DNA from: Chloroflexota bacterium
GTDB lineage: Bacteria; Chloroflexota; Dehalococcoidia; Bin125
Direction: 5' to 3'
Length of the DNA stretch: 64,000 nucleotides
NCBI GenBank assembly: GCA_009838915.1
Contig: VXQT01000013.1
Span: 441,161-505,160, forward strand
The notes below the pieces were generated by a model. It was given only the letters and a program-made list of their open reading frames with translations. It was not told where the DNA came from and made no database searches. This document shows positions 17,350 to 22,478 of this stretch, one piece after another. Positions within the stretch are counted from its first letter, which is position 1. Each line of letters starts with the position of its first letter. Made by a program: the position numbers and the translations under genes.

Positions 17350-18417
17350 TCAGAGCGGAACGGTCACCGGGCGGGTCATTCCGCCGAAGGTGGGCATCCA
17401 GCACGAGTGCTTGCCCGGTCCGCCGGCGACGATGATGTGAATCTCATCTGGTTTGTCCGTGATCGGCAGCCATTCGTCGGGGTCGTGCGGATCGAGCACG
17501 CCGCCGGCCATGCGGATGTTGACGGACTCGAGGAACTCTTCGCTGAGCTTGCTCGCCGGATAGCGGGCGTGCTCCCAGAGGTACTCCTGCACCGCCTCAC
17601 GGGTCCAACCTTCCGATGCCACCGTCTCGGCGTGCTCGGGGCCGAATGCCAGCACCGGCTCGCCCTTGCCCAGGATGTTGTTCGATCCCGCCTGACCCAT
17701 CGCGCCCGCGACCGTTTGCAGGATGCCGGCCGCCGTGTTGCTGCCGTGATCCTGGATGTTGTGCGGACCCTCGCAGGCCCAGGTGGTGACGCAACTATCC
17801 TCGGCGTTGAGACCGCGGGTGGTCTGGAAGGGCGGCCAGGGCGACGCATCCTCGCGCTCGGTCGCGCAGAACGCGAACTTGGCCGGCGTGCCCTGCGTGG
17901 CGCGGTCGCCGCGACCGGGGGTCGCGCCGGCGACGTTGAGCTGGACCAGCCGGACAGCCCGGCCGATGGTCGCGTTCGACGGAAACGTCGGACCGAAGCA
18001 GCCCGAGCCTCCATGGATCCCGGCAGCCCGCGCCGCTGGTCCGGAGGCCAGCACGAACACCGCGCAGGGATGCGTGGTCGCGTTGATCCCGTCCAGGTTG
18101 AAGGGCGCCTGCGAGATCGCCTCGACGGCGGCCAGCACGACCGGAAACTGCTGCGGACGGCAGCCGGCCATCACCGCGTTGATCGCCACAGCCTCAACCG
18201 TCGCCTCGCCCTGGCCCGGTGACAGCACGCCCAACAGATCCAGCGGATCGCGCCCCACCAAGTCGATCATCGCCGCGACCCGTTCCGCCGTCGGCGGAAT
18301 CAGCGGCAGGCCGTCCGACCAGCCCCGCCGGATGCACTCCTGCGAGAACTCGAAAGCGTCTGACGGGAGCGTGAAGCGGTCGGCCTCCCGTCCGCGGGAG
18401 CCGGATGCGGACGTCAC
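17350..18417 (-). CDS. UGSC-associated conserved protein (unknown function)
   Basis: I do not recognise a named family in this 355-residue soluble protein. It has no signal peptide or helix bundle. Features include SDGLPLIPPTAERVAAMIDL near the N-terminus and a Gly/Asn-rich core (HGGSGCFGPTFPSNATIGRA and MGQAGSNNILGKGEPVLAFG). There is a Cys pair in SCVTTWACEG and a C-terminal strand-loop IHIIVAGGPGKHSCWMP. The GTG start lies in a GTGA overlap with the stop of the upstream UGSC selenoprotein, so the two are probably translated together at matched levels. The conserved Cys residues make it a candidate substrate or subunit of the selenoprotein; this is inference. Confidence 0.7.
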   Translation of the reverse strand: MTSASGSRGREADRFTLPSDAFEFSQECIRRGWSDGLPLIPPTAERVAAMIDLVGRDPLDLLGVLSPGQGEATVEAVAINAVMAGCRPQQFPVVLAAVEAISQAPFNLDGINATTHPCAVFVLASGPAARAAGIHGGSGCFGPTFPSNATIGRAVRLVQLNVAGATPGRGDRATQGTPAKFAFCATEREDASPWPPFQTTRGLNAEDSCVTTWACEGPHNIQDHGSNTAAGILQTVAGAMGQAGSNNILGKGEPVLAFGPEHAETVASEGWTREAVQEYLWEHARYPASKLSEEFLESVNIRMAGGVLDPHDPDEWLPITDKPDEIHIIVAGGPGKHSCWMPTFGGMTRPVTVPL

Positions 18418-18959
18418 GAGCCGTTGCCCTGACCCAGCAGCGCGGACTCCAGCCGATCGACCACTCCGTCATCGACGCGCGCGCGCACCCGATCCGGACG
18501 CAAACCGCCCAGCGGATGCGGGACGATCAGCCGGTCCAGATCCGGCAGACCGCGCTGCTCGGCTTCAAGCTGGAGCAAGTCGGTGAAGGCCGAGGTGCCG
18601 ACCGTCACGGTGGGGATTCCCATGTCTTCGAAGAGGACCGAGGCGTGGACACTCCACGTCGTGCAACTTCCTCAATCACAGCTGCCGATCAAGAGAAAGT
18701 CCGCCCCATTGCGCAGCTCATCAATCGTCGAGTCGGAGGGCGGCCCGCCTACGGGCTTGCTCCCCACGACCAGTTCCCCAAGTCGGTGGCGCTCGCCCAG
18801 CCGCTCGACCATGGTTTCCAGCAGCAGCCGAGCATTCGCCTTGCGGTTCTCGAGGATGCCGGGCCGGAGGCCGACCAGCGATGTCGGGCGAGGCGCCGCA
18901 GTCGCCTCATGGACGGCGACGTGGGCGAGGGGGCTGAGGACTTCGATAGTTTCCGGCAT
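18414..18959 (-). CDS. UGSC-family selenoprotein (in-frame TGA = Sec96)
   Basis: One 181-residue gene read through a TGA at 18674-18672. Upstream of the TGA the protein ends ELRNGADFLLIGSCD. Downstream, in the same frame, it continues GSCTTWSVHASVLFEDMGIP and then TVTVGTSAF...RLIVPHPLGGLRPDRVRAR. Reading TGA as selenocysteine gives D-U-GSCT, the signature for which the UGSC family is named; Cys replaces Sec in many relatives. Other pattern blocks, such as GLRPGILENRKANARLLLETM, also fit my memory of the family. The ATG at 18959 has GGAG 10 bases upstream. No Trp use of TGA is seen: TGG serves Trp and TGA ends many neighbours. The role is thought to be redox but is unproven. The stop overlaps the partner gene (GTGA). 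A nonsense mutation of a Cys codon is the alternative. Confidence 0.85.
18644..18674 (-). promoter_or_regulatory. Candidate bacterial SECIS element in UGSC mRNA
   Basis: Starting 13 nt after the TGA, CGTGGA-GTG-TCCACG (18658-18644) forms a perfect 6-bp hairpin. If the last A-T pair opens, the loop is AGUGU. Counting the U of UGA as 1, loop G and U fall at 23 and 24, the positions known to contact SelB in E. coli fdhF. The lower stem is weak and a bulged U17 is not evident. Confidence 0.55.
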
Positions 18960-19027
18960 GAAAAGGCTCCGCTCGTGACAGTCAGCACGGTATCTATATC
19001 AGGTTACTGATTCTCGCGGAACTCGCC

Positions 19028-20638
19028 CTACTCTTCGTCGGCTCGTGGATCGACCACGATTATCTCGGAGTAGCCAACGATCCTAGTTTCCTGGGCGTCC
19101 CCTCCCGGACACCGAGTCATGATTTCGACTCGCACGCGACCAGCGACTATTGGAGTGCCCTTGACCCTCATTCCGCTCTCTCCTGTCTGCACGTTCGAGA
19201 AACTCTGAAGCTTGAGTCCGTTCCATGTCCCGCCAGGATTGACGGTGAATCTCCCCCAGGGCCCGAGCTCTCTCAGATATGTCGTGCCGTCGGAGTAGGA
19301 TCTTTCGACGACACATCCTGGGATCTTGTTCGAGGTCACAACTACCTCATCACTCCTTAGTCTGTACGACTGTCCAATCTCCAATGTCACACTGAGGTGC
19401 AACTGCTCAGGCGGGATCTCCTCATAGTCCGATGCGGACTCGGGTGCCGGTTGAGTGAGAATCCTGTTCACTCTTCCTGTAAGTTCACTCTCCGGACTTA
19501 CGTGTGGAGGTATCCCTATCTCCACTCCGAATCTTTTGGCAAGAATCAGAGCGCCGGCTGTGTCGAACCCTGGCACGTACCGTTGCCAGAGCATCAACAA
19601 GGTCGCAGCAAATCTGGGTCCATAGCCGGACTCTGGGCCACTAACGACGCGTGCAATTCGATTCAACAGATTAGTGGCATCTTCGACGTGGATGAACGGC
19701 TCTCGTTGATCGGCGTAGGAGATACCCCACTCCTCGGCCTTTAGCTCAAGAACTGGACGGTCGTCCCGACCACGATACAAGTCATCGAATATGGCATCTG
19801 TTACGTCCTTCATGATTGCCCAGTAGGTCTCCTTGTCGGGGAGAGTGTCGTGCCTAGCTTGGGAAAAGGAGCTGGGGATGAACTCGAAGCGAACCCGATC
19901 TTCCCAGTCAGCCACCAGATAGTACAAGAGATTGTAGTTGTCTCCGGCGAGTGGCATTCTGATAGATAGTTGCGCGCCGCCGGGTGGGTCTGGATCTTCC
20001 AGGTCAGTGGTAATCCAGAGCCCCGGCCACCGAGCTGTTAGCCGAATGGAGCTTCCGATAGTCTTCCCTTCGTGCTTGCCCGCGGAGTCAAGGTTGATGT
20101 GATACCAGCCACCGTTTCCTGTGGCGATGAACTGCCGATTCACGACAAAGATAGTGAAGTCCGGCCTCAATACGCGTCGGCTGGTAAGTTGGGTTGGCTT
20201 CATCCCTCCGCATGATCGACCGGATCTCGTGGCAGCCAACGTTCCTCCTGCCAAGCCAATCACGTTGTCGCAACTGTCCATGAACACGACGCGGTCGTCA
20301 TACACGGTGATCTTTAGAACTCGTTCGACCTGGACACTGGTCTCCCAGTAGACAGCCCCATCGCCAGCCTCGATGAGCGCACCGCGTTCCAGGATCTTGC
20401 CAGGCAACGCGAGAATCTCGCCTCGCTCGGCGGCCGCGCTGAGGCAGTCAGTGAAGTCTTCCTGCGAGGAACTGCCGGGAATCCCCTCGAGATAGAAGTG
20501 CCACCAGACCGTGTCGTGGCACCAGGCAGGGACCGGCGATTGACCTGCGCCGGACGTGGAGGTCGACGCGAGCCCGGCAAACACGCCGAGAACTGCGACC
20601 GTCAGCAGGAACAGTCGGCGAACGGCTACAGGTTCCAT
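19028..20638 (-). CDS. Secreted orphan protein of lower GC content
   Basis: I do not recognise this 536-residue protein. It has a clear N-terminal signal peptide (RRLFLLTVAVLGVFAGLAST), so it is likely exported, and no further membrane helix. The mature part is rich in aromatic residues and strands, for example YHINLDSAGKHEGKTIG and PGGTWNGLKLQSFSNVQ, with scattered Cys that could form disulfides. Base composition differs visibly: a counted 60-base stretch (19441-19500) is about 52% GC against mid-60s around it. Rare codons such as AGA and ATA are frequent. It lies 26 bases after the Rdx gene and 68 before UGSC, so it may be a recent insertion into that operon. Confidence 0.65.
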   Translation of the reverse strand: MEPVAVRRLFLLTVAVLGVFAGLASTSTSGAGQSPVPAWCHDTVWWHFYLEGIPGSSSQEDFTDCLSAAAERGEILALPGKILERGALIEAGDGAVYWETSVQVERVLKITVYDDRVVFMDSCDNVIGLAGGTLAATRSGRSCGGMKPTQLTSRRVLRPDFTIFVVNRQFIATGNGGWYHINLDSAGKHEGKTIGSSIRLTARWPGLWITTDLEDPDPPGGAQLSIRMPLAGDNYNLLYYLVADWEDRVRFEFIPSSFSQARHDTLPDKETYWAIMKDVTDAIFDDLYRGRDDRPVLELKAEEWGISYADQREPFIHVEDATNLLNRIARVVSGPESGYGPRFAATLLMLWQRYVPGFDTAGALILAKRFGVEIGIPPHVSPESELTGRVNRILTQPAPESASDYEEIPPEQLHLSVTLEIGQSYRLRSDEVVVTSNKIPGCVVERSYSDGTTYLRELGPWGRFTVNPGGTWNGLKLQSFSNVQTGESGMRVKGTPIVAGRVRVEIMTRCPGGDAQETRIVGYSEIIVVDPRADEE

Positions 20639-20664: not shown

Positions 20665-20916
20665 CTACTCGAGGTAGCCGTAGACGAGTTCCCGTAACTC
20701 ATCCATGTCGGGGAAGCGACCCATGGCGGCTTTGCTGAAGACGAGGTCTCCGTTCACCGACCACTCGAACAAGCCCTTGGTGTCGGGGATCAGCTTCACG
20801 TCCGAGACCAGGTGCTGGATGTCGGTCATCAACTCGCCCAGCATCCAGGACGTGCGCGGCCAGTAGCCGCAGTCGGCGCAGTAGACAACCTCGATCGCGA
20901 TCTGCTTGTCGGACAT
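20665..20916 (-). CDS. SelW/SelT/SelH-like Rdx family protein (Cys form)
   Basis: An 83-residue thioredoxin-like protein with the N-terminal strand IAIEVVYCADCGYWPRTSWM. The CxxC (Cys13, Cys16) lies where eukaryotic and some bacterial SelW proteins have CxxU. The centre VKLIPDTKGLFEWSVNGDLV and the end (MGRFPDMDELRELVYGYLE) match the short Rdx fold. It is expected to act in thiol redox or peroxide handling. It follows an LLM oxidoreductase by 5 bases, so it is likely co-transcribed and may act with it. The UGSC selenoprotein is about 1.7 kb further on the same strand. Confidence 0.85.
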   Translation of the reverse strand: MSDKQIAIEVVYCADCGYWPRTSWMLGELMTDIQHLVSDVKLIPDTKGLFEWSVNGDLVFSKAAMGRFPDMDELRELVYGYLE

Positions 20917-20921
20917 GGCGT

Positions 20922-21920
20922 TTAGCCGCCCAGGTACTGTTCCAGCCGCCGACCGACATCCACGGCGTCGCCCGAAGGCAACGGGATCATCTGCAAGTCG
21001 GCGCCGGCATCCGAGCGGGCCTGCAGCTGCTCGGGGACCGACTCAATCGGGCCGATCACCTGGATCTCGCGGACCATGCTCTCGGAGAACGCCATCAACG
21101 CGCCTTCCGAGTCGCGGTCGGCCCAGGCGGCGCGGGAGTCCTTGATCTCCGATTCGAAACCCGAGCGCGAGAGCATCTGCCAATAGAACGAGCCCATCCG
21201 GTTGGTGTAGTGGAAGAGCGGCTGGCGGGCGTTACGCCAGACCTTCTCGTCGTCGCCCTCGCCGGTCACGTAGACGTTGGTGAACGGCGCAATCGTGACC
21301 GAGTCCTCGGGCCGGTTGGCATCGCGCGAGGCGCCGGCGAGCTGGCGCTTGAGCGGCTCGAATCCGCGCTTCGGCCAGTGGATCGGATAGATGCCGTCCG
21401 CAATCTCTCCGGTCTGCTGGATAGAGCGCGGCGTGATCGCGGCGATCCAGACGGGCAGGTCCTCGCGCACCGGCTCGTAGCCCAGCAGGCGGAAGCCGCG
21501 CTGCAGCGTGTAGATTTCGCCCTCGTACTGCAGCCGCTGTCCACTGAGCAGCATCTTGATGATCTCGGTGTACTCGCGAATCCGCCGCAGCGGCCGGTCG
21601 AACTCGACGCCGTGGAAGCCCTCAATCACAAGGTTGCCAGATGACCCAAGTCCGCAGACCATGCGTCCTCCGGAGATCGTCTCGAGTGTGGCGAACTCCT
21701 GCGCAATGGCCGCGGGCGTCCGCGAAAACGTGTTCAGGATGCCGGTGCCGATCTGCATCTTCTCGGTGTTGGCCGCGATCACCGTCAGCCAGGGCAACAC
21801 TGAGTGCCCCCAGGCTTCGCCCGTGGAGACCATCTCGTAGCCCAGGTCCTCGGCGATCTTGATTTTCTCCAACGTGTCGCGCCAGTCGGCGCTGAATCCC
21901 GCCAGGATGCCTAGTCGCAT
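20922..21920 (-). CDS. LLM-class flavin/F420-dependent oxidoreductase
   Basis: A 332-residue luciferase-like protein: MRLGILAGFSADWRDTLEKI, GYEMVSTGEAWGHSVLPWLT, MQIGTGILNTFSRTPAAIAQ and GRMVCGLGSSGNLVIEGFHG. The last pattern is typical of the mer/SsuD-like group that uses F420 or FMN. The substrate is unknown. It is the second of two LLM genes in the window. The closest downstream partner is the Rdx protein. The REP-like copy at 21961-22005 lies upstream, between it and ridA. Confidence 0.87.
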   Translation of the reverse strand: MRLGILAGFSADWRDTLEKIKIAEDLGYEMVSTGEAWGHSVLPWLTVIAANTEKMQIGTGILNTFSRTPAAIAQEFATLETISGGRMVCGLGSSGNLVIEGFHGVEFDRPLRRIREYTEIIKMLLSGQRLQYEGEIYTLQRGFRLLGYEPVREDLPVWIAAITPRSIQQTGEIADGIYPIHWPKRGFEPLKRQLAGASRDANRPEDSVTIAPFTNVYVTGEGDDEKVWRNARQPLFHYTNRMGSFYWQMLSRSGFESEIKDSRAAWADRDSEGALMAFSESMVREIQVIGPIESVPEQLQARSDAGADLQMIPLPSGDAVDVGRRLEQYLGG

Positions 21921-22016: not shown

Positions 22017-22478
22017 CTACTCAATCTCGACGATCATCTCGATCTCGACCGCCATGCCGACCGGCAGTGATTGCATGCCGACCGCGGAGCGGGCGTGGCG
22101 GCCCGACTCGCCGAACAGTTCGACCAGCAGGTCGGAGGCGCCGTTGGCGACGCCGGGCTGATCGCCGAACTCGGGCGTGCAGTTGACCATGCAGAGCAGC
22201 TTGACGATCCGCGAGACGCGGTCGAGCGAACCGATCTCGGCCCGTAGCGAGCCCAGCAACTGGACCATGACCGCCCGCGCCGCCTGGTAGCCGGCGTCGA
22301 CATCGAGATCGGCGCCCAGCTTGCCGCGGATCAGTTGGCCGTCCTGGAACGGTCCGTGTCCCGAGAGGAACACCAGGTTGCCGGTCCGCACCGCCGGGAC
22401 ATAGTTCGCCAGCGGCGGATTCGTCGACAGGTCCAGTCCCATCTCCAACGCCTTCGCATCGGCGTTATGTGCAGACAT
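22017..22478 (-). CDS. RidA (YjgF/YER057c/UK114) family protein
   Basis: A 153-residue RidA-type protein, which in characterised members hydrolyses reactive enamine/imine intermediates. NYVPAVRTGNLVFLSGHGPF, ARAVMVQLLGSLRAEIGSLD with VSRIVKLLCMVNCTPEF, and the end HARSAVGMQSLPVGMAVEIE fit the family. The Arg of HARSAVGM corresponds to the substrate carboxylate ligand. GAAGGAG stands 7 bases before the ATG. It is probably in one operon with the LLM and Rdx genes downstream and VOC upstream, but the REP element interrupts the transcript between RidA and LLM. Confidence 0.9.
   Translation of the reverse strand: MSAHNADAKALEMGLDLSTNPPLANYVPAVRTGNLVFLSGHGPFQDGQLIRGKLGADLDVDAGYQAARAVMVQLLGSLRAEIGSLDRVSRIVKLLCMVNCTPEFGDQPGVANGASDLLVELFGESGRHARSAVGMQSLPVGMAVEIEMIVEIE

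Follow-up and report, generated by a model that had tools for sequence, protein, structure and literature searches.

The window analysed here comprises 64,000 nucleotides of an uncultured Dehalococcoidia genome (Chloroflexota bacterium, GTDB Bin125; assembly GCA_009838915.1, contig VXQT01000013.1, positions 441,161 to 505,160 of the forward strand). Its minus strand carries a gene of the UGSC family of selenoproteins, interrupted by an in-frame TGA, and directly behind it a partner gene. The elements of this unit, in positions of the window, are:

18414–18959, minus strand: UGSC-family selenoprotein gene, 181 aa, Sec (selenocysteine) at residue 96, assigned by PF24696 match and orthologues
18672–18674, minus strand: in-frame TGA, assigned as Sec (U96) from the TGA of aligned homologues and from tRNA-Sec(TCA), SelA, SelB and SelD in the genome
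18644–18658, minus strand: hairpin resembling a selenocysteine insertion sequence (SECIS), 6 bp stem (18653–18658 with 18644–18649), loop GUG (18650–18652), assigned by covariation and local fold
17350–18417, minus strand: partner gene, 355 aa, GTG start overlapping the UGSC stop (GTGA), conserved C86 and C184, unnamed family, assigned as UGSC neighbor or fusion

The UGSC frame starts with ATG at 18959, passes the TGA and ends with a TGA stop at 18414–18416. The protein read through the TGA is ...ADFLLIGSCD-U-GSCTTWSVHASVLFEDMGIPTVTVGTSAFTDLL...LDRLIVPHPLGG..., and the surroundings of Sec read ...LLIGSCD-U-GSCTTWSVH..., the TGA being residue 96. The original prediction described two open reading frames (ORFs) in the same frame, separated only by this TGA, which together encode a UGSC-family selenoprotein. 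Both ORFs and the quoted residues are present, with SCD standing between LLIG and the TGA. A standard gene caller returns the two ORFs, as foreseen.

The family assignment is borne out by Pfam. PF24696 (UGSC) matches the read-through protein with 143.1 bits (gathering cut-off 25) over residues 6–165, corresponding to positions 1–162 of 172 of the profile, and this single match runs unbroken across the TGA. Orthologues from 13 genomes of the genus are 88–93% identical over the entire read-through and have the TGA at the same place. Because of this identity and the continuous match the read-through is not due to chance. The narrower NCBIfam model NF041046 gives 108.6 bits, which is below its equivalog cut-off of 125. 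By these profile scores the protein is a member of the wider Pfam family PF24696 and not of the NF041046 equivalog. In an alignment of 35 members, the U/C-G-S-C motif with its preceding Asp and the conserved K68, F125 and P149 are all found in the window protein. The same alignment shows UGSCTTW in the window clade, with Trp in place of the third Cys that most paralogues have (UGSCTTC or UGSCxxC). A sequence search of the PDB with the UGSC protein gave no meaningful match. A viral scan used a pattern encoding Cys, so that TGA forms were outside its reach, and found no relative.

The genome encodes a full set of Sec machinery, which the original prediction had proposed to look for. It includes a tRNA-Sec with anticodon TCA (70.8 bits, above cut-off), SelA (528 bits), SelB and SelD (350 bits), the four components expected of a bacterium with selenoproteins. 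The SelD match itself spans an in-frame TGA (L009, G000:C24:22895-23836); judging from this, SelD of this genome is probably a selenoprotein too. Two more UGSC paralogues are present (G000:C12:31596-32102 in L026 and G000:C28:180560-181066 in L046).

UGSC genes occur in all 20 genomes examined of the same GTDB family. Exactly one TGA is found in 59 of their 60 UGSC matches, the remaining one being a 65-residue fragment outside the motif. Across the phylum the family is present in 42 of 400 genomes, nearly always with one TGA. Besides a lack of Sec machinery, a sense codon other than Cys at the Sec position of close homologues, or an assembly error producing the TGA, had been named as grounds for rejecting the selenoprotein; none of the three applies. 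Every homologue aligned by similarity has TGA at this position, and an assembly error is excluded because numerous independent genomes share this TGA. A scan with a DNA pattern including the TGA yielded at least 118 UGSC loci in Proteobacteria, Actinomycetota, Acidobacteriota, Myxococcota, Bacillota, Chloroflexota and others; as the pattern required TGA, the scan gives no ratio of Sec to Cys. Among the matches listed, all 118 loci have a UGSC profile match. Distant homologues without Sec also exist: L113 reads ACWGTS and the fusion protein in L109 (6238-8043) reads GDTRSG. In these two, Sec and the UGSC motif are both lost and the partner is kept as a neighbor or as a fused domain. In Geodermatophilaceae, UGSC-motif selenoproteins are reported together with a tRNA-Sec of anticodon CUA, Sec being encoded by TAG (PMC5330540).

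Bacterial SECIS elements are stem-loops just after the UGA with a small apical loop containing G (PMC1088965), and the hairpin of the window fits this description. Its loop begins 20 nt after the UGA. Counted from the T of the TGA as base 1, bases 17–22 pair with bases 26–31, the loop begins with GU and the stem occupies the codons of residues 101–106. Base 21 closes a codon for Cys (TGC) or Trp (TGG) and is paired with base 27, which occupies the last position of the codon two further on. All 100 sequences with a Val codon there have a base 27 complementary to base 21 (TGC with GTG, TGG with GTC); in the shuffled control the mean is 58 and the maximum 76. The scan pattern fixed bases 19, 20, 28, 29 and 31, and the pairs 19–29 and 20–28 are thus no evidence in the scanned loci; on bases 21 and 27 it imposed a partial constraint or none (B and N). 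For 20 divergent Chloroflexota sequences that did not come from the pattern the covariation score is 0.405, whereas slid partners reach at most 0.095 and none of 500 shuffles attains the observed score. The hairpin folds locally with -7.6 kcal/mol; folding of its region does not exceed that of shuffled sequences (z -0.28 for 39 nt and -1.68 for 21 nt). Thermodynamics alone is not decisive and the case for a SECIS rests on covariation. Rfam has no match at 18200–19200. Translation of the TGA at 18672–18674 as Sec by tRNA-Sec, SelA, SelB and SelD, directed by the adjacent downstream hairpin, is strongly supported at the level of sequence, and on the same footing the window gene is a selenoprotein of an already named family.

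The UGSC gene and its partner form a conserved two-gene unit that was absent from the original prediction. A partner homologue adjoins UGSC in most Chloroflexota loci. Among the matches listed in the scan across many phyla, 102 of 118 loci have it at most 1.5 kb from UGSC. As for the remaining loci, L167 has the partner 1.8 kb away, L240 is a genuine exception, and almost all the rest are truncated near UGSC on one side or both. The unit is also found in cultivated bacteria (Neobacillus bataviensis and Sheuella amnicola). At the L046 locus and its orthologues, a single UGSC gene has two or three partner copies around it. Many Chloroflexota have both proteins as one chain of about 550–610 residues with the Sec domain first. 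Since split and fused forms exist, the two proteins would act as one enzyme, as this gene arrangement indicates. Of 31 partner homologues, 28 conserve residues C86 and C184. Searches of Pfam, NCBIfam and PDB sequences gave nothing meaningful for the single partner sequence or for the 31 homologues. The predicted structure of a natural fusion (L111) is confident over both domains (pLDDT 90.9, pTM 0.92). A fold search with this model returns matches mainly to the UGSC domain and barely covers the partner domain.

The AlphaFold2 model of the UGSC protein, calculated from 35 sequences, has a pLDDT of 94. Strands and helices alternate in the β-α order of flavodoxins, and U96 is located at the start of a helix directly after strand 88–94. 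Fold matches in the PDB are of the flavodoxin, response-regulator (CheY) and Rossmann types, with Z up to 10.3 (127 aligned residues, r.m.s. deviation 2.8). Such matches to a predicted model reflect a common arrangement and imply no function by themselves. The listed matches were inspected for a thioredoxin fold and contain only these three types, although a fold missing from the list is not thereby disproved. The predicted flavodoxin-like parallel α/β fold argues against the thioredoxin-like fold proposed for the family (PMC2398784).

UGSC is distantly related to GrdB, the subunit that carries selenium in glycine reductase. The UGSC profile was compared by hhalign with eight Chloroflexota GrdB proteins, each read through its own active-site TGA. 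The score is 68.4 to 68.8 (pairwise E 1.9e-10) over 84 columns, with Sec aligned on Sec. As the E-value refers to a comparison of one pair, shuffled profiles are the better yardstick: 200 column-shuffled UGSC profiles score at most 22.5 and the reversed profile scores 22.7. With eleven columns around the motif masked the score is still 40.5, and the 35-sequence alignment alone gives 65.1. These profile comparisons show the UGSC domain to be homologous to the Sec domain of GrdB and PrdB, the subunits of glycine/sarcosine/betaine and D-proline reductases. No statement of this relation was found in the literature searched.

The full GRDB domain (PF07355) does not match the UGSC protein at E up to 10; UGSC is a related domain only. 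PF07355 ends immediately ahead of the Sec residue; this may explain why the link is invisible in Pfam. For the same reason full GrdB proteins were needed: with the PrdB-like proteins of this genus alone there is no clear signal, but it is clear with full GrdB read through the TGA. Chloroflexota GrdB genes with in-frame TGA (L255–L262) vary in their motif between UGTC, UGTG, UGSC and UGSG. The genome of the window itself also has GrdB/PrdB-type proteins, at 1423-2661 of L133 (G000:C38) and at G000:C22:228619-228975. An in-frame TGA also occurs in the L133 protein (TPV-U-PFCTR), making it another likely selenoprotein.

Upstream of UGSC the following genes are present:

19028–20638, minus strand: ORF of 536 aa between Rdx and UGSC, unknown family, no Pfam or NCBIfam match
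20665–20916, minus strand: Rdx, a SelT/SelW/SelH-like protein with CADC (Cys form), assigned by PF10262 (63.8 bits) and synteny
20922–21920, minus strand: LLM-class (F420/FMN) oxidoreductase, PF00296, conserved upstream in the cluster
22017–22478, minus strand: Rid-family (YjgF) protein, PF14588/PF01042, conserved in the cluster

The order in the genus is glyoxalase-like protein, Rid, LLM oxidoreductase, Rdx, UGSC and partner, followed by a nucleoside hydrolase in divergent orientation and a second LLM protein. The 536-aa ORF has a 52% identical copy at the same place in L063, the sole such case among the relatives examined. In several other relatives Rdx is directly beside UGSC, and in five relatives (L051, L053, L059, L060 and L062) it lies about 30 bp upstream. 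Rdx is a candidate reductant of UGSC. In Neobacillus bataviensis (L185) and a SAR116 bacterium (L160) a family III coenzyme A (CoA) transferase is found near UGSC. The latter locus, from SAR116 cluster bacterium AG-325-I21, is a compact selenium cluster with SelA, SelB, a PrdB-like gene, the CoA transferase, UGSC and partner within 8 kb. The neighboring genes suit the catabolism of small organic compounds, without naming a substrate.

UGSC and its partner may constitute a two-component selenoenzyme of the GrdB type, a reading to which we assign about an even chance. UGSC would work like GrdB: the selenolate of U96, placed at the helix start behind the central strand, would attack a small organic substrate bound jointly with the partner. 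The selenoenzyme would be left oxidized, probably as a U96–C99 selenenylsulfide, and could be reduced again by a Cys-based protein of the thioredoxin type such as the neighboring Rdx. Several observations weigh against this reading. GrdB shares only about 85 residues with UGSC. C99 is invariant in UGSC and missing from some GrdB proteins (L256, L257, L261 and L262), hence the selenenylsulfide step need not be common to both. Between the partner and GrdE, the pyruvoyl subunit working with GrdB, no homology is detected (hhalign 19.2, with shuffles reaching 23.6), and the partner family has no match to the GrdE-type model PF09338; a mechanism like that of GrdB would therefore need a different substrate-binding partner. 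Furthermore, Rdx was seen beside UGSC only in the lineage of the window; other loci have CoA transferase, cyclase or transporter neighbors.

The proposal of 2008, a general thiol oxidoreductase of the disulfide reductase or peroxidase type with a thioredoxin-like fold, would make the partner a protein substrate or redox partner. The two conserved Cys of the partner (C86 and C184) and the nearby CxxC protein Rdx would fit it. It is nevertheless unlikely, given the high-confidence flavodoxin-like model and sequence profiles that tie UGSC to GrdB instead. Less likely still is a role of the selenoprotein in binding or transferring a metal, metalloid or thiol compound instead of catalyzing a redox reaction or C-X cleavage. 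U and C of the motif could form a soft-metal site with the third Cys of most paralogues (UGSCxxC), but this Cys is Trp in the window clade and metal-resistance genes were not found in the neighborhoods examined. That the TGA is a true stop, leaving the remains of a decayed gene in two short pieces, or an artifact of assembly, agrees with the two ORFs of the gene caller. Against it, dozens of genomes have the TGA at the same place in intact frames, the close orthologues align over the whole read-through, the hairpin covaries and the Sec machinery is complete. This explanation is wildly improbable, a real stop being already refuted by conservation.

UGSC-containing selenoproteins were named in 2008 by Zhang and Gladyshev (PMC2398784) and are one of the major families in Global Ocean Sampling (GOS) data. 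The original prediction was right about the selenoprotein but had scored it as more novel than it is, since the family (PF24696, NF041046) is a named one and the window gene itself is a further member. The window gene agrees with the family in the domain, the U-G-S-C motif, the in-frame TGA and the hairpin after it. Where most members have the third Cys its clade has Trp, and it falls short of the NF041046 cut-off. The GOS data also contain a fusion of UGSC, like that with the partner, to a conserved domain called 'Unknown_1' (Figure S1A of PMC2398784), which is likely identical with the partner. The literature found gives no function for UGSC, which is among the commonest selenoproteins of ocean and fresh water. 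New here are the link to GrdB, the constant partner and the covarying SECIS. The placement next to GrdB and the constant partner turn an 'unknown redox protein' into a testable hypothesis of a two-component enzyme. It is about equally probable as not that many free-living bacteria have a widespread two-component selenoenzyme of the GrdB/PrdB superfamily acting on a small molecule, in which a new substrate-binding subunit replaces the pyruvoyl GrdE/PrdA. Compared with GrdB and PrdB, UGSC is without the long N-terminal region that PF07355 covers, and its partner is unrelated to GrdE at the sensitivity used. It shares with them the strand-Sec-helix-strand core, in which the GIP and HPxG stretches align.
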